Shown one piece after another: positions 23,199-60,122 of a stretch of 64,000 nucleotides of DNA (position 1 is the stretch's first letter; every line of letters begins with the position of its first letter). The translations under genes and the position numbers were made by a program. The notes under the pieces are model-generated. The model had not been told where the DNA came from. It searched no databases and worked only from the letters and a program-made list of their open reading frames with translations. Origin of the DNA: a virus; the IMG/VR virus record IMGVR_UViG_3300020446_001892, positions 19,698 through 83,697 of that record; one strand, given 5' to 3'.

Positions 23199-24176
23199 TT
23201 ATCTAAAACGATTCCTTACCATATCTACAAAAATTTTAACATTAGTAGGCGGTGTTTCTTTTAGTATGCCATGGCCTAAACCACAGACCCAGCCAGTAGT
23301 ATCATTAATTGTATCAAGCCATTTATTAATTTCGTATCTTAAAATTGTTTCTGAATTTTGTAGTAACAAAGTTTCATCAAAGTTTCCCTGCACAAAACCT
23401 GAAGTCACTTTTTGTAATGTCTTGTTGAGATCGATAGTGCTATCTATTCCTATTCCAGTGAATCCTATATCAATTAATTTGTTTAAACTATTGTATGGCA
23501 GATTTTTTGAATAATATACAGTGTGTTCAACTTGTGCTAATTCTTTTAGAATCTTCAAATATTCTTTATCGAATACTCCTTTAGGCATATTGTGTAATCC
23601 ACTGTCAAAAATCATCACACAATCTGCACCAGCATCTGTCTGTTGTCTAATACTTGCTTTTAATAACGGAAGCAAATTATCATTAATAAATTTTATTTTA
23701 AAATTATTAGTTACTTTACTTTTTCCACAGGCATAATTCATAAGTGTCCAAGGCCCGCCTACAAACCCAACAAGATTTTTCTTATATGGTAATTTTTCTC
23801 TTGTAGTTTTTATTGCCCTTGCCTGAAAATCTAAGTGTTTCATCTTACTTTGTCTATATTGATGATTTTTATAATTTTCCTCGGTAAGGTCAAATTCAAA
23901 CTTTGGGCTAGGATTAAATTGTAAAGGTATTCCTAGAGCTTCTATATGGAATAATATATCGCTGAATAAAATTGCCACATCAAAATCATATTCATTTATA
24001 GGTAGCATAGCTACATCTGATGCAACTTGTGGCAGTTTACACATCTGCACAAAAGAAAATTTTTCTTTAAAAGCTCTATATGATGCTTGATATCTTCCTG
24101 CTTGTCTCATCATCCAAATTGGAGGACAAGATTGTTCTACCCTGTTACGGGCATTGTCGAATAATGTTTCGGTCAT
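23199..24176 (-). CDS. hemE: Uroporphyrinogen III decarboxylase
   Basis: A 325-residue protein (family usually ~340-355), start at MTETLFDNA. It converts uroporphyrinogen III to coproporphyrinogen III in heme synthesis. Visible signatures are PPIWMMRQAGRYQASYR (substrate Arg), ILFSDILFHIEALG (catalytic Asp), FVGGPWTLMNYACG and the C-terminal GLGHGILKETPP (conserved His). All key residues are kept, so it should be active. It is rare as a phage gene. The same genome carries heme oxygenase and a bilin reductase, which suggests tetrapyrrole rerouting. There is no strong Shine-Dalgarno. Confidence 0.9.
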   Translation of the reverse strand: MTETLFDNARNRVEQSCPPIWMMRQAGRYQASYRAFKEKFSFVQMCKLPQVASDVAMLPINEYDFDVAILFSDILFHIEALGIPLQFNPSPKFEFDLTEENYKNHQYRQSKMKHLDFQARAIKTTREKLPYKKNLVGFVGGPWTLMNYACGKSKVTNNFKIKFINDNLLPLLKASIRQQTDAGADCVMIFDSGLHNMPKGVFDKEYLKILKELAQVEHTVYYSKNLPYNSLNKLIDIGFTGIGIDSTIDLNKTLQKVTSGFVQGNFDETLLLQNSETILRYEINKWLDTINDTTGWVCGLGHGILKETPPTNVKIFVDMVRNRFR

Positions 24177-24217
24177 CACTTATTTAATGACAGGATAAAA
24201 ATTATTATATTGAGCTT

Positions 24218-25883: not shown

Positions 25884-25912
25884 ATAATAGCACCAACAAA
25901 TGCATTTGTCAA
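25884..25912 (-). promoter_or_regulatory. Early-type sigma70 promoter for DNA ligase
   Basis: TTGACA, 17 bp, TATTAT between tRNA-Cys and the ligase ATG at 25855. Confidence 0.68.
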
Positions 25913-25919
25913 CCTAAAT

Positions 25920-25993
25920 TGGACACCTAGGCCGGACTCGAACCGGCATACACGGAGTTGCAGTCCGTTGCATAACCATTCTGCCACTAGGTG
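25920..25993 (-). tRNA. tRNA-Cys (GCA)
   Basis: Cloverleaf on the minus strand: acceptor CACCTAG/CTAGGTG, anticodon stem ACGGA/TCCGT with loop CTGCAAC (anticodon GCA), T-arm GCCGG-TTCGAGT-CCGGC, discriminator T as usual for Cys, and an encoded CCA. Its first base lies one base after the CCA of tRNA-Trp. Confidence 0.95.
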
Positions 25994-25994
25994 T

Positions 25995-26069
25995 TGGCAT
26001 AGGTGGAAGGAATCGAACCCTCTCTTTCAGGTTTGGAATCTGACGTGCAACCATTGACACTTCACCTAC
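25995..26069 (-). tRNA. tRNA-Trp (CCA)
   Basis: Acceptor GTAGGTG/CACCTAT (first pair G-U), anticodon loop TTCCAAA (anticodon CCA), T-arm GAGGG-TTCGATT-CCTTC, discriminator G as in bacterial tRNA-Trp, encoded CCA. The anticodon stem has one A-C mismatch. The 5' end directly follows the U-run of the hairpin at 26076-26104. Confidence 0.9.
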
Positions 26070-26105
26070 AAAAAAAGCCCCTAAACAATTTCTTGCTAGG
26101 GGCTT
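26070..26105 (-). terminator. Rho-independent terminator directly before tRNA-Trp (possible attenuator)
   Basis: Stem AGCCCCTA/TAGGGGCT (8 bp, 9 with the closing A-T) with a 13-nt loop, followed on the minus strand by seven T. It lies between a short leader ORF and the tRNA-Trp/tRNA-Cys pair, so it must be read through or cleaved for expression from the upstream promoter. Confidence 0.8.
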
Positions 26106-26131
26106 CTAAATAACTTTTTTAAAAAGTCACG

Positions 26132-26191
26132 TCAAGACATACCCCTGGGCGTAGGAGAACACCAAAATTGTAATGTATTAGTCTTGATCAT
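26132..26191 (-). CDS. Putative leader peptide MIKTNTLQFWCSPTPRGMS
   Basis: A 19-codon ORF with GAAGGA upstream of its ATG, lying between an early-type promoter and the terminator before tRNA-Trp and tRNA-Cys. It contains adjacent Trp and Cys codons (TGG TGT). The run AGGGG five to six codons later can pair with CCCCT in the terminator's 5' arm. This is the layout of transcription attenuation; translation of the ORF is inferred. Confidence 0.5.
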   Translation of the reverse strand: MIKTNTLQFWCSPTPRGMS

Positions 26192-26214
26192 GTATCTATT
26201 CCTTCTTTATTATC

Positions 26215-26222
26215 TATTTATA
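26215..26222 (-). promoter_or_regulatory. Late-type promoter box TATAAATA
   Basis: Exact T4 late consensus TATAAATA overlapping the -10 box of the early-type promoter before the leader ORF and tRNA pair. Confidence 0.55.
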
Positions 26223-26248
26223 ATAGCACCTTCAATTGACTTTGTCAA
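26220..26248 (-). promoter_or_regulatory. Early-type sigma70 promoter for the leader/tRNA unit
   Basis: TTGACA, 17 bp, TATTAT. The -35 lies at the end of the upstream zinc-ribbon gene; the expected start near 26213 leaves about 20 nt before the leader ATG. Confidence 0.68.
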
Positions 26249-42171: not shown

Positions 42172-42179
42172 GTATTTAG
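42172..42179 (-). promoter_or_regulatory. Late-type promoter box CTAAATAC abutting an ATG
   Basis: CTAAATAC with the ATG at 42168 only three bases beyond; it overlaps the end of the curlin-repeat gene. Confidence 0.45.
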
Positions 42180-43207
42180 TTTTGTGTTATTGTTATACCA
42201 CAACCGTTTGCATTGGTACATGTACCGGTTAGGTTGTATGTTTTGTTTGAATTGGCTGTTTGATCTAGGTCTAGGTTGTAACCTCCGCCTGCATTTGTTA
42301 GGTCAATGTTTGTGGTGTGATTTCCATAACGTTGAAAAATATCCACTGTATGTCCATCGTCTAATACTACGTCTGCAAACTGTGTATCAGTATTGCCACG
42401 TTGAAGTAAAGTAACATCATTGTTATCGCCGTTAATTTCTACAAATCCTTCATGTTCGCCACTACCACGTTGTGTATGATGAACAGTATTGCTATCACCT
42501 GTTATATAGTTTGCTATATGTAACCCACCTTTATTGTTATCATCTGTTTGATAACTTTCAAGAGTATTGTTGCTACCACTTACTATCCAGTATACGTCAT
42601 TATCGCCTGTTTCGTTAGCATCTACTGTTCCGTCTTCATGCTTGCCTTGCCAGGCCTTAACGGTATTATTGCTTCCATTCACTGTGACTGTGTTAATGTT
42701 GTTACTTTGTTCATGTATTTGTATATCAATACTATTTGTACTACCATCTAATACTTCTGTATACACTGTGTTAGTGTCACCTTCGTCTATAGTGACTGTA
42801 ATTGTATTATTTACATCACCGCCATTTCCTATTTCTGTATGAGTAACATTACTATCTCCGTCAATAGTTACAGACATATCATTATTGTTACCGTGATTAT
42901 CCATAGCACTAATATTAGAATTACCTTGCTGTGTCAAAGTCATTTGTTGATTACCGCCGTGTGTCCATAGCCCTGCACGATTGTTGTTACCTTGTTGTGT
43001 TAATGTAAAGGTTTTGTTATTGCCACCTAGATAAGCATCACCACTTGTAGTGTTAAGACTACGAACTTTGTTATCTTGGCCGTCTTGAGTTATAGTGGCA
43101 GTGAAATGATCACCTACCTGGTTTATATAAAGATCGTTAGCCCAACTAATTGTTGGACTGTTGAATATTAATACTATTAGTGCCTTCTGAACCCAACCTG
43201 TAGTCAT
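42176..43207 (-). CDS. Curlin-repeat amyloid-like secreted protein 2
   Basis: A 343-residue protein, start MTTGWVQKALIVLIFNSPTI (AAGGAG upstream), signal peptide ending at WAND. It has many curlin-type repeats: QVGDHFTATITQDGQDN, LTQQGNNNRAG, LTQQGNSN, HTQRGSGEHE, LLQRGNTD. The regular Q-x-G-x-x-N ladder is the mark of CsgA/CsgB subunits, which are exported through CsgG and polymerise into amyloid fibres. Longer than E. coli CsgA (~150 residues). The first repeat matches curlin protein 1. It follows the FecR gene with a 62-base overlap. Confidence 0.82.
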   Translation of the reverse strand: MTTGWVQKALIVLIFNSPTISWANDLYINQVGDHFTATITQDGQDNKVRSLNTTSGDAYLGGNNKTFTLTQQGNNNRAGLWTHGGNQQMTLTQQGNSNISAMDNHGNNNDMSVTIDGDSNVTHTEIGNGGDVNNTITVTIDEGDTNTVYTEVLDGSTNSIDIQIHEQSNNINTVTVNGSNNTVKAWQGKHEDGTVDANETGDNDVYWIVSGSNNTLESYQTDDNNKGGLHIANYITGDSNTVHHTQRGSGEHEGFVEINGDNNDVTLLQRGNTDTQFADVVLDDGHTVDIFQRYGNHTTNIDLTNAGGGYNLDLDQTANSNKTYNLTGTCTNANGCGITITQN

Positions 43208-44300
43208 AGATTTCAAAGTCTCCTTGTTTAACATCAATTGTATAATCATACTGTCTATTTAATCTCATACGGATAAAACCACCTTGTTCAAAATCTTCAC
43301 GTTGCCATACCCAATATGGTTCTATTATGTCTAGTCTTATTTGAGTTTTAGGATCAAATCCAACTTGTGGTACGTTACTCAACAGCCTTTCGTTTTGTAA
43401 AGCCAACTCGTCTTTAAACAATGCGGCAAGAGCTTCATTTAATTTGTCTAACATATCATGAAGCATATCAGCTAACATAAAAGCAGTTTCATCTAGTGCT
43501 GTGACCCATATACCTTCGATACTATCAGTTAGAGCATCACCTTCTAAAAAGTCAACTTCTAAAAAATCAATACCAAGGAAGTCTGCTAATTTTCTCTTCT
43601 TTAGTTGTTCTTCTTCGTTGTAATCTTCAATTGGTGAACGTTTACGAAGTATAAGTAAATTGTTTATCATATCTTCTGAAATCTTGAGGATAACTGGCGG
43701 CGTAGGTTTTCTCATGTTATGTGTAGTTTGCGTTGATTGGAATGCCTGATTCATCATCACTATACCAGCATCAGTTTCAACTGTTATTTCTCCTACAAAA
43801 CATGCACCTGCTACATCGCAACTTGGAAGTAATGTAATCATACTGCCACCAAATTCATCAACTACCATAATAAAGTCTGTTCCTCTTACTCCTATAGTAG
43901 CACTAGGTGTTCTAATTTTTACATTTTGTTTGTATCTTTTTGCTATTTGTCCAGATGCATATCTTACAGTGCCAAGACTCGCTTTTAATGATAGTGTACC
44001 TAGATCTCTACTAGGATCATACACAAATTCGTCTATTACTAATCTTGACTGTTCTGTAAGTTCTACTCTTGTTTGATCTATGAAATTAATTTTCATAGTG
44101 CCTTTTGCAGTTACAGCAGTGTCCATGCTTTCAACACCCACGCCTGCTTTACCCTCTATGATTACGGTAGATCCGCGTTCAATAACTCCAGAACCCTTAA
44201 CTTGTCCGATCTCTCCAACATTTGGATATGCAGGAGTAACCAATAAAGCAAATAAAACTAGTAAGCCTAACATCAACCATGTAAATTTGTTAGGCGCCAT
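43146..44300 (-). CDS. FecR-domain exported protein
   Basis: A 384-residue protein starting at ATG 44300 (an earlier GTG is possible). Signal/anchor WLMLGLLVLFALLVTPAYPN, then a FecR domain: VIEGKAGVGVESMD, MKINFIDQTRVELTEQSRLV, TLSLKASLGTVRYASG, VKIRTPSATIGVRGTDF. The helical C-terminal half has LADMLHDMLDKLNEALAALF and ends NSINIQQSNN, which resembles a curlin repeat. FecR-like proteins sense or organise envelope signals. Between two curlin genes it may nucleate or regulate fibre assembly (inference). Confidence 0.8.
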   Translation of the reverse strand: MAPNKFTWLMLGLLVLFALLVTPAYPNVGEIGQVKGSGVIERGSTVIIEGKAGVGVESMDTAVTAKGTMKINFIDQTRVELTEQSRLVIDEFVYDPSRDLGTLSLKASLGTVRYASGQIAKRYKQNVKIRTPSATIGVRGTDFIMVVDEFGGSMITLLPSCDVAGACFVGEITVETDAGIVMMNQAFQSTQTTHNMRKPTPPVILKISEDMINNLLILRKRSPIEDYNEEEQLKKRKLADFLGIDFLEVDFLEGDALTDSIEGIWVTALDETAFMLADMLHDMLDKLNEALAALFKDELALQNERLLSNVPQVGFDPKTQIRLDIIEPYWVWQREDFEQGGFIRMRLNRQYDYTIDVKQGDFEIYDYRLGSEGTNSINIQQSNN

Positions 44301-44301
44301 A

Positions 44302-45036
44302 CTAGTCACTTTGTGTTATATCTACGTCTTGATTATCACCATCGAAATCAGCGTTGACTGTGTTATCGTAAATGCCGCTTTGATCTACAGTGTATGAGCT
44401 CCCGCCTCCAGTTACATCTAATGTTACTGTATGGCCTGAACTATCACCATCACCGTCAATATCAATATCAACTACATTACCTGAACCACTTGAAGATAGA
44501 GTACCGCTTGTAGCTCCACCAGTTGCTAGACTTGCACTATTGTTCACAACTACAGTTAATGCAACACTTTCACCGTCAATGTCAGTTTTAATTACGTTGT
44601 CATCTCCTGTAACAGTAAACGAAACAGTCGCTCCGTCTGCATCTGCTGTATCACCAATGTTAAAGTCATATGTGTTATCGTCACCTGTTGTAGTAATATT
44701 TAAAGTAACGTTTTCACAGTTTGTACCACTAGTGCTATCGCAACTTAGATCGACTTCGTTTGAATCACCAGTGAATGCCCAAGTACCTGTATAAGAAGAA
44801 CCTTGGATATCAGCTACTATAGTGTTAAGATCACCTGTTTGTGTTATGGAGAATGTCATTGAATCTCCATCTAGATTTACATCAGTAGTACTAGTACCAA
44901 TTACGTTGTTTTGTCCATCTTGTGTTATGTCTAAATCAAGCGTGTCCCCCACTTGTTCAATATAGATATCGTTTGCTAAGGCAGGAGTTACGGCGATTAA
45001 ACAAAACAATATCAACCCTCTAATTGTTTTTATCAT
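44302..45036 (-). CDS. Curlin-repeat amyloid-like secreted protein 1
   Basis: A 244-residue protein with signal peptide (MIKTIRGLILFCLIAVTPAL then AND). Mature repeats include QVGDTLDLDITQDGQNN, ITQTGDLNTI, TTGDDNTYDF, VTGDDNVIKTD and a final VDITQSD, with regular Thr/Asn/Asp/Gly beta-strand periodicity. One Cys pair (LSCDSTSGTNCENV) may cross-link. It starts within the end of csgG and is followed one base later by the FecR gene. Expected to be exported by CsgG and to form extracellular amyloid-like fibres. Confidence 0.82.
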   Translation of the reverse strand: MIKTIRGLILFCLIAVTPALANDIYIEQVGDTLDLDITQDGQNNVIGTSTTDVNLDGDSMTFSITQTGDLNTIVADIQGSSYTGTWAFTGDSNEVDLSCDSTSGTNCENVTLNITTTGDDNTYDFNIGDTADADGATVSFTVTGDDNVIKTDIDGESVALTVVVNNSASLATGGATSGTLSSSGSGNVVDIDIDGDGDSSGHTVTLDVTGGGSSYTVDQSGIYDNTVNADFDGDNQDVDITQSD

Positions 45037-45979
45037 TGTTTCCTTTCTGGCTTTGTTCCTCTATTGGCCAACATAAATCCGACTTATCACAATACAACCT
45101 AGCATTTGGCCATTTATCTAAAGCGTCAGCTAAAGGCAACGGCCTTGATCGTGGTAAAGCACCTTTATATGTTTTGTCTTTGAATTTCCAAAGCCCTTTC
45201 GTTTCACCTTCATATACCAGTTGGACTACACCTGCTTCAATAGCCGCCCTCACAGCGTAATTTACTGGTTCGTTAACGGAATACCCCGTCTCCGATTCTA
45301 TCAATTTAGTTCCCATATCAAGGAACTTAAATATGTCCGCTCCGGACCTTGAGCTTGCGATTGTTTTCTCTGTCGCTATGCTCAGTAGCACTTTTCCACT
45401 GCTTACACTTACAACTCGCATAACAACAGTGACGGTATCTACTCTATACTCAGTCTGTGCACCTAGTCCTAGATACCTAGCGCCTACACCGCCTACAGCA
45501 ACATTAGAGTCATAACCTATAATGCCACCTTCAAGTATAAGCCCTGCAAACACCATCGGCTTAAGTGCTCTAGGACCATTAGGTAAATTCTTTTCATAAA
45601 CTTCTCGTGTATTCCGGATCAGCTGTCTCTCTTTGATCAGATTGTCCATTCCTACACGTTCTACTACTTCAAACCAAGTTTCATTGCCTACTTCTGATAA
45701 AGCCTTAATAACCCATACTTCAGATCCTTGCGTAACTGCACTAGATAGGTTTGCAATGTTATCAGCTGGTTTACGTTGTCCGGTTTTATCCATAAAACTA
45801 TAAACAGCTATAGTCATTTTTTTACCATCTAGTTCGGGTACCTGCATCATTCGCTCTGCTAAAGGTGCTGGCTGTATTCTAGGAGGCCCTGCCTCGTTGA
45901 ATGTGTCCAAGCTCTTTTGCATTGTACCACTGCAACCTGTAAGTATCAATGTGCCTAGTAAAATTAAGATTCGAATCAA
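45020..45979 (-). CDS. csgG: Curli secretion channel CsgG
   Basis: A 319-residue lipoprotein (MIRILILLGTLILTGCSG; lipobox LTGC) starting at a TTG that overlaps the csgF stop and has GGGGAG eight bases upstream. CsgG signatures include MTIAVYSFMDKTGQRKP, ALSEVGNETWFEVVERVGMD, NLIKERQLIRNTREVY, AGLILEGGIIGYDSN and GGVGARYLGLGAQTEYRVDT (transmembrane hairpins), then VSVSSGKVLLSIATEKTI. CsgG forms the nonameric outer-membrane pore for curlin export (type VIII secretion). Confidence 0.93.
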   Translation of the reverse strand: MIRILILLGTLILTGCSGTMQKSLDTFNEAGPPRIQPAPLAERMMQVPELDGKKMTIAVYSFMDKTGQRKPADNIANLSSAVTQGSEVWVIKALSEVGNETWFEVVERVGMDNLIKERQLIRNTREVYEKNLPNGPRALKPMVFAGLILEGGIIGYDSNVAVGGVGARYLGLGAQTEYRVDTVTVVMRVVSVSSGKVLLSIATEKTIASSRSGADIFKFLDMGTKLIESETGYSVNEPVNYAVRAAIEAGVVQLVYEGETKGLWKFKDKTYKGALPRSRPLPLADALDKWPNARLYCDKSDLCWPIEEQSQKGNNDKNN

Positions 45980-46452
45980 AAGTTAAACTCCCCTGCACCA
46001 GGTATTGTAATTGTAGTTGTGCTTCCATCTTCTTCAATAACAGTAAGAGTAATTTCTCCTGTTGTTGCGTCTTTAGCCCAAGTTATTTGTGAGCCTTCGA
46101 TTTCTGCGGTGCCACTTGTTGCACAAGTTGTTGTCGTTGCGTCACAGTCAGCAAACATACTATCTACCATTTGCTTACTAAGAGTAGCGTATATTCTACT
46201 TTCTACGTTCTTAATAAACTTGTTCAGGGTTGTGTTTTCTAATTCTCTTTCTAGCTCCCTCTGTACTCTTGCCTGTTCATCTTTCATATCTTGCTTTCTA
46301 TTATGTTGTAGTTGTTCAACACTTAATACGTGTGATGAATAACCATTGCCATGATGGAAAGCAGGCGATTTAAAGCCCCAAGTCAGTTCACTAGCGAAAG
46401 CAGTATTGGATACCGCCCATACGATTAATGTAGATAGTACTTTGAATTTCAT
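45976..46452 (-). CDS. csgF: Curli assembly factor CsgF
   Basis: A 158-residue protein, start MKFKVLSTLIVWAVSNTAFA (signal peptide; AGGAG upstream). The mature N-terminus SELTWGFKSPAFHHGNGYSS matches the CsgF region that inserts into the CsgG pore, followed by VLSVEQLQHNRKQD and a long charged helix. The C-terminal beta part ends TTTITIPGAGEFNF. CsgF narrows the CsgG pore and couples export to fibre nucleation. It is first in the curli operon, behind two late-type boxes. Confidence 0.85.
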   Translation of the reverse strand: MKFKVLSTLIVWAVSNTAFASELTWGFKSPAFHHGNGYSSHVLSVEQLQHNRKQDMKDEQARVQRELERELENTTLNKFIKNVESRIYATLSKQMVDSMFADCDATTTTCATSGTAEIEGSQITWAKDATTGEITLTVIEEDGSTTTITIPGAGEFNF

Positions 46453-46470
46453 TAGACACTCCTGCATTTG

Positions 46471-48193: not shown

Positions 48194-48882
48194 GCAAGTT
48201 TAGGAAACAACATATCTGTGCAGAAACGATCTACATCTTCTTCTGGTAGGCCTAGACTTTTCATTACATTGGCCGTATGTGGATTTTGTTGCTGGTTTTC
48301 ACAGTAATAGTTTTGACAGGCCGCTACAAGATCAGGAGCACCTTCGCCTTTTGTTTCGCCTACCTCTTCAAAATAAGCATGTAAATTGCTTAATGCTATT
48401 TGAATTATTTCTGTCGCTTCTTCATCTGTTTTTACATTACCAGCGGCAAGCATTTTACCTGTGAAAATATTTCTAGCCCATTCTGGTAGTTCACGTTGCT
48501 TCTCAGGCACAAAGTGTTCTACACTTTCAAAGTAACCTTGTATCATAGGATGATCTGGGTCAGCACTAGGTGAAAAATCATGGAAAGCTCCAGTCATTTT
48601 ATTCTTACCTGCTATTACATCAAAGCCGTATATAGGTGCTGGATTGTCTAGTGTCGGAAAAATGCATACATGCATCATCCAAAGACCTTTTGTTGTTCTT
48701 GCATCAACTACGTCGATATGGGCACGGCGTACATAATCATTAGCCCAAACACGATTAATCCAACCATTGTCTGGACGATTGAAATAGTCCAACCCATCTT
48801 CTTGTATTTCTGTCGCTTGTTCATCAAAAATTTTAATTATATCATCTTTGCAATCAATCAACTTGTTCCAAATAATGCTCAA
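48190..48882 (-). CDS. pcyX: Ferredoxin-dependent bilin reductase (PcyX/PcyA-like)
   Basis: A 230-residue protein of the FDBR family, with a TTG start supported by GGAG seven bases upstream. Family core: NDYVRRAHIDVVDARTTK, GLWMMHVCIFPTLDNPAPIY, GFDVIAGKNKMTGAFHDFSP. The PcyA-type catalytic His (His71) and Asp (Asp88) are both present. FDBRs reduce biliverdin, made by heme oxygenase, using reduced ferredoxin. The gene overlaps the heme oxygenase gene, so the pair forms a bilin pathway. From memory, PcyX-type enzymes were described from marine viral contigs and make phycoerythrobilin; product here not proven. Confidence 0.85.
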   Translation of the reverse strand: MSIIWNKLIDCKDDIIKIFDEQATEIQEDGLDYFNRPDNGWINRVWANDYVRRAHIDVVDARTTKGLWMMHVCIFPTLDNPAPIYGFDVIAGKNKMTGAFHDFSPSADPDHPMIQGYFESVEHFVPEKQRELPEWARNIFTGKMLAAGNVKTDEEATEIIQIALSNLHAYFEEVGETKGEGAPDLVAACQNYYCENQQQNPHTANVMKSLGLPEEDVDRFCTDMLFPKLA

Positions 48883-49420
48883 TATTTAACTCCATTAATT
48901 CTTTAAATAAATTCGTAGATGCAGTAAAACAATATTTGGCTTCTTCTGCCATTGCATCATTTGTTTTTGCACGGATTGCTTCTTTTAATTTTTTCTTGTC
49001 TGCATCAAATTGATACATTCTACCTTCACCAGGTACTTTACGTGCAATCATTTGTCCGCCACTTAAATCGCCCATATGTAAGGTATAGATATGTGCCATT
49101 ATTGCATCCTTATCAGCAATAATTTCTTTCATATGTTTAATGTAATGTTGTGTGCTGTTTGTAACTATAGGTGGACTATCTGATTTCCACAATTCTAAAA
49201 AATCTTGTTCTATTTTTAGTTTTCTTCTTATATCAGGTAAATCATCAAGTAACCCTAGTGCTCCTGCAATAGCTTCAAGTAAATCGTATTTCTTGTGTTG
49301 ATTCCAAAGATAGGTTGCATATAATTCTGGATTAATTTTGCCACTTAACATTACTTTGACAAATGATTGTCTTTCTGCATCTTTATGATGCTCCCAGGTT
49401 AAATCTTTTAAATTACTCAT
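48854..49420 (-). CDS. ho1: Heme oxygenase
   Basis: A 188-residue protein. Proximal His12 in TWEHHKDAERQSF and the distal-helix motif MGDLSGGQMIARK (Gly117-Gly122) are intact. It opens heme to biliverdin with release of iron and CO, supplying the bilin reductase whose start overlaps its end. It is coupled to clpS by ATGA. At 188 residues it is shorter than the ~230 of cyanobacterial HO1. The phage use could be pigment formation, iron release or CO signalling. Confidence 0.9.
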   Translation of the reverse strand: MSNLKDLTWEHHKDAERQSFVKVMLSGKINPELYATYLWNQHKKYDLLEAIAGALGLLDDLPDIRRKLKIEQDFLELWKSDSPPIVTNSTQHYIKHMKEIIADKDAIMAHIYTLHMGDLSGGQMIARKVPGEGRMYQFDADKKKLKEAIRAKTNDAMAEEAKYCFTASTNLFKELMELNIEHYLEQVD

Positions 49421-59330: not shown

Positions 59331-59334
59331 TATG

Positions 59335-59502
59335 ATTATTCTGTTGCTAGGTAATCAACCCCGGAAAGCCTAATTAGGCCGCCATTGCCATTTCTGGCGC
59401 ATAATTGTCATTTGCAATTATAAAGTTTCTTCGCGTTAACCGAGCTTAGATCCGGATAACTCCACTCATCTATTAACTACCAGTCGATCCTAGTTCGGCC
59501 CC
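59335..59502 (-). ncRNA. ssrA: tmRNA, coding (tag) piece of a permuted two-piece tmRNA
   Basis: The 5' end GGGGCCGAACTAGGATCGAC (59502 downward) is the canonical tmRNA start with its D-loop. The tag frame, from the resume codon at 59415, encodes ANDNYAPEMAMAA and a TAA at 59374-59376, with the small hydrophobic end that ClpXP recognises. There is no usable T-arm/CCA downstream. The matching acceptor strand is instead upstream at 59839-59845, giving GGGGCCG/CGGCTCC with the G3-U70 pair for alanine. The 3' boundary is estimated. Confidence 0.85.
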
Positions 59503-59604
59503 ATCATAAACACACCAATAGTACTTAACAAAATATTCTTTCCATCGATCTCCATATACCTTAATATATGCTTCTCTTATGAAATCAAATTCTGCTTTAC
59601 TCAC
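59473..59604 (-). CDS. Possible 43-residue ORF overlapping the tmRNA 5' end
   Basis: A GTG at 59604 with AAGGA six bases upstream opens a frame reading SKAEFDFIREAYIKVYGDRW and KEYFVKYYWCVYDGAELGST, ending in TAA at 59473. It looks protein-like, overlaps the previous ORF's stop, and its last ten codons coincide with the tmRNA 5' end. RNase P cleavage of the tmRNA would cut this message. Confidence 0.35.
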   Translation of the reverse strand: MSKAEFDFIREAYIKVYGDRWKEYFVKYYWCVYDGAELGSTGS

Positions 59605-59815
59605 AAGTTTCCTTACCACTACATTCTGCAGGGAAACAATGACCTTTCATATGATAGTAACTATTCTCATAACTATGATTCCACATTTTCTGATCTATCA
59701 TATATTCACATTGCGGTTTAGACATAGGTTGTTGTAAAGCAATTTGACCAATGTAATGATCATTGCCGTACATGTCTGCACCCCACATTGTAATTACTAA
59801 TATAAATTCCTTCAT
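59597..59815 (-). CDS. 72-residue protein encoded between the two tmRNA pieces
   Basis: Start MKEFILVITMWGADMYGNDH with GGAG six bases upstream. The N-terminus is mildly hydrophobic; the rest has QPMSKPQCEYMIDQKMWNHS and GHCFPAECSGKETCE with four Cys, so it may be an exported disulfide-bonded protein. It begins 20 bases after the CCA of the acceptor piece and so lies in the segment that is cut out of the tmRNA precursor. Function unknown. Confidence 0.6.
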   Translation of the reverse strand: MKEFILVITMWGADMYGNDHYIGQIALQQPMSKPQCEYMIDQKMWNHSYENSYYHMKGHCFPAECSGKETCE

Positions 59816-59834
59816 GCTCTTCTCCGTGTGTTTA

Positions 59835-59895
59835 TGGTGGAGCCGCCGGGTACCGCCCCCGGGTCCTGTATAGCGTTTGAATTGCTTCAACGTTA
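59835..59895 (-). ncRNA. ssrA: tmRNA, acceptor piece of a permuted two-piece tmRNA
   Basis: The minus strand shows T-arm CCGGG-GGCGGTA-CCCGG, acceptor strand CGGCTCC, A and CCA (59835-59837). The GGCGGTA loop and CCGGC(G)..CTCCACCA ending are typical of alphaproteobacterial permuted tmRNA. It pairs with the GGGGCCG at 59496-59502. It lies upstream of the coding piece, as expected for circular permutation. The 5' edge is estimated from the promoter. Confidence 0.82.
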
Positions 59896-59900
59896 CATTG

Positions 59901-59908
59901 TATTTATA
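59901..59908 (-). promoter_or_regulatory. Late-type promoter box TATAAATA
   Basis: Exact TATAAATA overlapping the -10 of the early-type promoter before the tmRNA acceptor piece. Confidence 0.5.
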
Positions 59909-59931
59909 ACACTATATATTATAAATGTCAA
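59903..59931 (-). promoter_or_regulatory. Early-type sigma70 promoter for the tmRNA
   Basis: TTGACA, 17 bp, TATAAA; the expected start near 59893 is just before the acceptor piece. Confidence 0.65.
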
Positions 59932-60122
59932 GACTTTTTATCATAATGTGATTTGATTTTGTCTGCAAATATTCCTATAAGACCAAATATAAAAATAAAA
60001 ATTAACCAGGCGATTGCTATATATGCACCTACTCCCCATTCATAGTCTACATACATCGGTGCAACCACAGCACTGACTATTCCTGCTATGATGCAGATTG
60101 TCCAATAAATTTTTTTAGCCAT
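59928..60122 (-). CDS. Two-span membrane protein (64 residues)
   Basis: Reads KKIYWTICIIAGIVSAVVAP, a short loop (MYVDYEWGVG), then a second span (AYIAIAWLIFIFIFGLIGIF) and a basic tail. Its stop codon lies within the -35 box of the tmRNA promoter. Small two-span phage proteins can be holins; no evidence beyond topology. Confidence 0.58.
   Translation of the reverse strand: MAKKIYWTICIIAGIVSAVVAPMYVDYEWGVGAYIAIAWLIFIFIFGLIGIFADKIKSHYDKKS

Follow-up and report, generated by a model that had tools for sequence, protein, structure and literature searches.

The tRNA genes of the phage studied here appear to be governed by a ribosome-mediated transcription attenuator that reads the supply of the very tRNAs encoded by the operon it controls, a reading to which we would assign a probability of roughly 85%. 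The window, i.e. the whole stretch of 64,000 nucleotides that was analyzed, belongs to an 83.7-kb virus record (IMG/VR record IMGVR_UViG_3300020446_001892), and the unit consisting of the leader and two tRNA genes lies on its minus strand, as do all features of this unit described below. A first-pass annotation had already suggested a tRNA-sensing attenuator testing Trp and Cys codons. This idea is supported by our analysis, and it can be extended to Ile(ATA), Ser, Tyr and Gly codons and, in single leaders, to Arg and Glu codons.

The anatomy of the unit is directly observed, and all the parts that had been proposed (a promoter, a 19-codon ORF with TGG TGT, a G run, a terminator and both tRNAs) are present in their places. 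The sigma70-type promoter TTGACA-17-TATTAT (26220..26248; 11/12 consensus matches) has an extended -10 TG, with the -35 TTGACA at 26248-26243 and the -10 TATTAT at 26225-26220. It is followed by a Shine-Dalgarno-like GAAGGAA (26199..26205), with an ATG 7 nt further on, and a purine-rich stretch occupies the same place in alignments A1 and A2 of related leaders. The leader ORF (26132..26191), which reads MIKTNTLQFWCSPTPRGMS, consists of 19 codons and a TGA stop, and contains TGG (26164-26162) followed directly by TGT (26161-26159). Region 1, CATG-A-TCAAGAC (26181..26192), covers the start codon and codons 2-4 and pairs with region 2 (26128..26145), the latter being composed of GGGG (26145-26142), which serves the antiterminator, and of GTCTTGACGTG (26138-26128), which is the partner of region 1. 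This helix of the start codon region with GTCTTGACGTG was not among the parts named in the first-pass annotation. The G run had been proposed to pair with an arm of the terminator; it does so as GGGG:CCCC within a longer hairpin, namely the antiterminator (26097..26145, predicted fold) with an inner TGACTTT:AAAGTTA stem. The intrinsic terminator, AAGCCCCTA...TAGGGGCTT plus a U tract (26070..26105), is supported by both sequence and fold, with arms at 26105-26097 and 26083-26075 and seven T ending at 26070. Only 1 base past the U tract begins tRNA-Trp(CCA) (25995..26069; Rfam 45.4 bits, gathering score 29), which was missed by ARAGORN at default but found by Rfam and by ARAGORN with relaxed scores, and it is followed by tRNA-Cys(GCA) (25920..25993; ARAGORN default and Rfam). 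The extended -10 recurs as GGTGCTATTATA in a second promoter at 25884-25912 (minus strand), directly behind tRNA-Cys and before the ligase gene.

Pattern scans of this kind are weak evidence when taken alone: 15 promoter-like sequences were found against 12.8 expected, and the terminator of this leader was not among the matches of the terminator scan. It is rather the recurrence of the arrangement in 52 distinct leaders, together with an antiterminator which folds better than its shuffles in 50/50 leaders tested, that leads us to conclude that the leader is not a product of chance.

These relatives were collected in several ways. The neighbouring ligase gene, used as a query, led to at least 80 loci, some of which show the same leader, and the viral collection was scanned for short conserved stretches chosen blind to the tested codons and tRNAs; together, both sources gave 43 distinct complete leaders. 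A covariance model built from 38 leaders, along with two more scans, added nine (L063, L018, L043, L075, L022, L191, L193, L195 and L200), five of which sat in loci already collected and were recognized only through the model. The resulting 52 distinct complete leaders, that of the window included, all come from uncultured phage contigs. Cut-off leaders (L119, identical to L114, as well as L149, L051 and L172) were left outside the counts, and chance matches were dropped by eye (L107, L108, L111, L124, L131, L138-L141, L143-L148, L150-L152 and, further, L161, L163, L168-L171, L176, L178, L180, L184, L186, L189, L194, L196-L199).

Conservation among these leaders is observed to be high. An in-frame TGG is present at codon 10 to 13 of the ORF in 52/52 leaders, tRNA-Trp is the first tRNA in all 52 as well, and 51/52 have TTGAC within the 85 nt that precede the start codon. 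It needs to be mentioned that in this recount the ORF was chosen as the one holding Trp, a condition not used in the earlier count. Relatives that keep the terminator and the tRNAs but lose the ORF or its Trp-Cys codons had been named in the first-pass annotation as a refutation of the idea. For the Trp codon, no such relatives were seen among the 52. The Cys codon is kept in 21/21 leaders with an operon tRNA-Cys, and it is absent from the tested stretch in 8/43 leaders, in all 8 of which the operon lacks this tRNA.

Among 66 distinct tRNA-Trp contexts in the loci then collected, the leader core is present in 48. Of the remaining 18, three are truncated and 15 have no perfect hairpin plus T6 upstream; as the loci were partly collected by leader patterns, 48/66 should not be taken for a natural frequency. 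In the same loci, no perfect hairpin plus T6 was found upstream of a non-Trp first tRNA, i.e. this element precedes a first tRNA only together with this leader or its cut-off fragments. Whole-record searches of 21 records revealed one copy of the leader in 18, none in three, and two in none; the record of the window has one. By eye, 13 contigs matching 24 bases of the window's tRNA-Trp gene show no such leader before the tRNA, which means that this type of tRNA-Trp also exists without the switch. In bacterial genomes, queried with one exact core pattern only, there were 7 matches, which on visual inspection all lacked leader, terminator and tRNA and were taken as chance. Among named phages, with the leaders of the window and of L100 as queries, no whole leader was present among the best 15 of 806 and of 333 records, respectively, and the listed matches to the window's leader were tRNA-Trp genes or short other stretches.

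The strongest support for the proposed attenuator comes from the observed correspondence between the codons of the leader ORF and the tRNAs of the operon behind it. We assigned neighbouring tRNAs to one operon when no more than 200 nt separated each from the next, and counted a cognate codon only when it was in frame and located between codon 7 and GGGG. In 43 leaders, 62/68 non-Trp operon tRNAs have their cognate codon, compared to 41.6 when operons are reshuffled among leaders (p=0.00005, the floor of 20000 shuffles). The nine later leaders, which were outside the set on which the rule was formed and whose tRNAs were all found by ARAGORN at default, gave 21/22 against a shuffled mean of 15.2 (p=0.0003), and the pooled 52 leaders gave 83/90 against a mean of 56.2 (p=0.00005). 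Omission of tRNA X(CAU) changes the count for the 43 leaders to 56/62, and reading it as Met to 56/68, with p unchanged. The 7/90 tRNAs without a codon are Arg(GCG) in L031-L033 and L018, Ser in L099, Ala in L105 and Arg(ACG) in L183.

Individual tRNA classes differ in how much they tell. The numbers of leaders, out of 43, with both codon and tRNA, tRNA only, codon only and neither are 21, 0, 14 and 8 for Cys (Fisher 0.0022), 10, 0, 1 and 32 for ATA ATA versus tRNA-Ile(UAU) or X(CAU) (Fisher 5.7e-9), and 5, 1, 2 and 35 for TCA/TCG versus tRNA-Ser(UGA). They are 2, 0, 8 and 33 for Gly (Fisher 0.05) and 3, 0, 17 and 23 for Tyr (Fisher 0.09), the latter becoming 3, 0, 3 and 37 if the Tyr codon is required to be doubled or to stand directly before Trp. 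Mere presence is uninformative for Pro CCN (18, 0, 23 and 2; Fisher 0.33), and no association was found for Arg (1, 4, 7 and 31; Fisher 0.66). Codons also occur without their tRNA in the operon, as is the case for Cys in 14/43 leaders and for Pro in 23/43; in the eight leaders where tRNA-Trp stands alone (L040, L046, L050, L074, L078, L079, L101 and L181), a Cys codon is present in 7/8 and Pro codons in 8/8.

Single leaders illustrate how closely codons may follow tRNAs. ATA ATA is present in 10/10 leaders with tRNA-Ile(UAU) or X(CAU) versus 1/33 without (the exception being L160), and where either of these tRNAs is present, ATA takes the place of ATT ACN; L195, which has tRNA-Ile(GAU), carries ATT and no ATA. 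Two near-twins have swapped GGT with tRNA-Gly (L097) for TGT with tRNA-Cys (L133), and L142 bears CGC CGC with tRNA-Arg(ACG), tRNA-Pro being absent. The most telling of the nine later leaders are L043 and L200. The former reads CGT TGG TGC CCG GAA in front of an operon with tRNAs Trp, Pro, Cys, Glu and Arg, of which Glu and Arg sit behind a possible further promoter, and the latter contains ATA, TAT, TGG, TGC and CCA with tRNAs Trp, Tyr, Pro, Cys and Ile. As a side observation, the CAU tRNAs found alongside ATA codons of the leader (L031-L033, L097, L112, L164 and L193) may be tRNA-Ile2, with lysidine, and not tRNA-Met.

One may ask whether the same attenuator senses amino-acid starvation instead, like the trp and his leaders, the tRNA genes being a general translation module. 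On one hand, stalling alone cannot separate low charging from a low level of tRNA, and Trp is present in every leader. On the other hand, it is the isoacceptor rather than the amino acid that the codons track (ATA with Ile(UAU) or X(CAU), ATT in L195), TCA or TCG accompanies tRNA-Ser(UGA) in 5/6 leaders, and an extra tRNA would not relieve starvation. We thus find this explanation unlikely, although it is the best of those that compete with the proposed attenuator, and it is because of the isoacceptor specificity (ATA, not ATT) that we consider tRNA supply, rather than the amino acid, to be the quantity measured.

Some of the correlation between codons and tRNAs has to be expected from descent, because the leader and the operon are inherited together. 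It could then be argued that the unit from promoter to terminator serves to produce an independent small RNA or peptide, that the tRNAs are expressed by leaky read-through or from another promoter, and that the codon match merely reflects common ancestry. A strong terminator does split the leader from the tRNAs, and after thinning to 4 very coarse clusters of similar leaders the correlation is no longer clearly significant (p 0.04-0.15). Yet the match survives thinning to 35, 27 or 9 clusters with p 0.0005 or less, and it holds in the later-recognized leaders. It is also confined to one reading frame, with 61/67 tRNAs matched in frame in 42 leaders, as opposed to 11 in the +1 and 5 in the +2 frame, both of which are below their own shuffles. 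Moreover, most of the variation of the ORF falls on its central part, which contains the tested codons, and parallel swaps are seen in nearest pairs. In 22 disjoint pairs (44 leaders), 17 tRNA differences are accompanied by a codon change in the same direction, 2 by an opposite one and 10 by none (one-sided sign test for 17 versus 2, worked by hand, about 0.0004); in L098, one of the two opposite cases, a tRNA-Cys is located about 340 nt further on. The pairs also contain 16 differences in codon presence without a difference in tRNA (25 with a looser codon stretch). Taken together, an independent small RNA or peptide seems quite improbable to us.

A nascent-peptide arrest switch, sensing free tryptophan or another ligand, is still harder to accept. 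In TnaC-type systems, a short leader peptide with Trp controls transcription, and free tryptophan is sensed through the nascent chain. The leaders described here share the short Trp peptide (52/52 leaders), with Pro after Trp in 42 and Cys before Trp in 37, but the position ahead of Trp is occupied by C, Y, R, F, N, G, L or I and the one behind it by P, C or R, and both vary with the tRNA list. In T-box riboswitches, a codon-like triplet serves to sense the charging of tRNA, and a terminator is controlled with no ribosome or ORF. Such direct binding of tRNA to the RNA is hardly conceivable here since, even though codon-like triplets do match tRNA anticodons in front of a terminator, several of them belong to a single uninterrupted frame that has a Shine-Dalgarno, a start codon and a stop codon, and no T-box was present among 16 Rfam matches up to E 5 for the window's leader.

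Returning to the attenuator reading the supply of its own tRNAs, we examined the RNA structures it would need. The protector helix, formed by region 1 (consensus CATG-N-TCAAGAC) with GTCTTGACGTG behind the G run, has 93.3% of cells paired in 38 leaders; no covariation beyond shuffles was found in this set, the sequence being too conserved. In 44 leaders, divergent ones included, 91.7% of cells are paired and there are 8 double-change cells versus 1.0 in shuffles (0/500 as high), slid versions of the helix giving 0 to 6. In the leaders starting with GTG, the partner of region 1 is changed to GTCTTAACACG. These double-change cells count sequences and not events, and as they come mostly from four GTG-start leaders, they may represent few events. 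The antiterminator has a mean of -18.7 kcal/mol and a mean z of -4.8 against dinucleotide shuffles, with z below -2 in 50/50 leaders (window: -15.2 kcal/mol, z -3.0); its pairs are 95-98% paired, without covariation among the leaders tested. For the terminator, the mean is -18.5 kcal/mol in 41 leaders, with 95.9% of cells paired in 38. The pairings 1:2, 2:3 and 3:4 are predicted to be mutually exclusive. The leader thereby has the features of an attenuator that can be judged from sequence and predicted fold: a promoter, a ribosome-binding site and a short ORF precede the controlled genes, an intrinsic terminator (sequence and fold) separates the leader from the tRNAs, an antiterminator excludes the terminator (by predicted pairing, without covariation), a protector helix excludes the antiterminator (with covariation once GTG-start leaders are included), and regulatory codons that correspond to what the operon encodes stand at a stalling distance that frees region 2.

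We propose the following course of events, in which translation of the ORF, stalling, the kinetic choice of the antiterminator, the polarity and the response of read-through are inferred, as there are no expression data. RNA polymerase would start at the promoter, with a ribosome translating the leader ORF behind it. With every tested tRNA charged and in good supply, the ribosome would reach the stop codon and cover GGGGTATGTCTTGACGTG, so that the terminator forms and no tRNAs are made. Scarcity of any tested tRNA would stall the ribosome at the respective codon, about 10-13 nt or more before GGGG, allowing the GGGG:CCCC antiterminator to replace the terminator and the tRNA operon to be transcribed. 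Should translation fail to initiate, the start codon region is predicted to pair with GTCTTGACGTG, and the terminator would form again.

The observed geometry can be compared with this scheme. We folded the pre-terminator RNA of 41 leaders, letting the ribosome cover 12 or 15 nt beyond the first base in the P site. The antiterminator stays when the stall is at least 13 nt before GGGG (mean P 0.95-1), it depends on the footprint at 10 nt (P 1.0 or 0.12), and it is blocked at 7 nt or less (0.12 or lower) as well as by a ribosome at the stop codon. In 42 leaders, the conserved Trp codon lies 13-19 nt from GGGG, the main Cys codons 16-28 nt and ATA 19-31 nt. A first Pro codon at least 12 nt away occurs in 14/18 leaders with tRNA-Pro versus 1/24 without (Fisher 7.5e-7), and a Gly codon at least 10 nt away in 2/2 leaders with tRNA-Gly versus 0/40 without. 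The folding of alternative structures had been named as a check in the first-pass annotation; the predicted fold of the pre-terminator RNA switches with the stall position, but equilibrium folding does not show the switch. With a ribosome stalled at Trp, the terminator wins at equilibrium in 40/41 leaders, only L098 being flipped, and equilibrium folding was rejected as a model of the switch. It follows that the switch has to operate kinetically. When no ribosome is present, folding favours the antiterminator for as long as the terminator is unfinished (mean P 0.87 in 41 leaders), and the no-translation OFF state therefore needs kinetics, too. Kinetic control is the accepted view for the trp leader.

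Leader-peptide attenuators are known for the amino-acid operons trp, his, phe, thr, leu and ilv, and those of ilv and thr test several amino acids within one leader. The leaders described here have the same short ORF with regulatory codons, protector helix, antiterminator and terminator; the difference is that the controlled genes are phage tRNA genes and that the codons match, and change with, the isoacceptors of the operon. In an Rfam search run with the window's leader only, no family reached its gathering score, the best leader match being Phe_leader (23.4/55 bits), followed by His_leader (20.3/49) and Thr_leader (15.5/55). Nor was leader-peptide attenuation of tRNA genes reported among the matches listed in the open-licence full-text literature, as far as their titles and the openings of their abstracts disclose. 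Because no Rfam leader family reaches its threshold for the window's leader and no report was among the literature matches listed, we regard this as a new variant: the anatomy of the attenuator is known, and such control over tRNA genes appears to be new.

The benefit to the phage can only be inferred, and it might lie in replacing tRNAs depleted by host shut-off, decay, demand or tRNA-cutting defences. That phage tRNAs rescue phages from tRNA-cutting defences is known (PMC11555353, PMC10264068). In the first of these reports, strongly promoted tRNA genes of T5-like phages are reported to counter the tRNA-cutting defence retron-Eco7 (PMC11555353). In both cases, phage-encoded tRNAs would make up for host losses, but there a strong promoter drives the tRNA, whereas the leader described here can make expression of the operon depend on the supply of tRNA. 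A broader idea, which we consider slightly less likely than not, is that the leader is a modular sensor of the tRNA inventory. It would act as an OR gate for the isoacceptors encoded in the phage's own tRNA operon, its codons would come and go with the tRNA genes, and it would turn the operon on when host tRNAs are depleted, for instance by tRNA-cutting anti-phage defences.

The presence of tRNA genes in phages has long called for an explanation, and the usual ones are codon usage and evasion of defence. Codons that name the controlled tRNAs would mean that these phages treat tRNA supply as a measured variable, codon by codon, during infection. This would be attenuation acting on tRNA genes themselves, and hence a closed feedback loop. 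The tRNAs that become scarce in the host could then be predicted from nothing but the sequence of such a leader, and the gain and loss of codons alongside tRNA genes might offer an unusual opportunity to see how a regulatory code evolves together with the genes it controls.

Several other features were noted near the leaders and in the window. In L105, L106, L112, L121, L126, L135, L137 and L164, the terminator and tRNA-Trp are separated by a conserved element of about 90 nt whose ends (ACTACACTACGCC...GATAGTGTAGT) are complementary, and a different one occupies this place in L116 and L043; no Rfam match was obtained in the two loci searched, L105 and L116. Upstream of tRNA-Arg(GCG) in L018 and L031 there is a separate promoter-like sequence, then about 100 nt with complementary ends and then the tRNA, without a terminator; Rfam gave no match in L018. 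A marine source and a proteobacterial host, not identified, are inferred for the phage of the window. Its ribonucleotide reductase beta subunit has about 64-66% identity to those of Pelagibacter phage Mosig and T4-like cyanophages, the best among the named-phage matches listed. Also on the minus strand of the window are ORFs that, judged by eye, we take to contain curlin-like repeats and a CsgG-like lipoprotein (42176-46467), and ORFs which presumably resemble uroporphyrinogen decarboxylase (23199-24179) and heme oxygenase (48854-49420), again by eye. A permuted tmRNA of the alphaproteobacterial type is located at 59331-59950 of the same strand.
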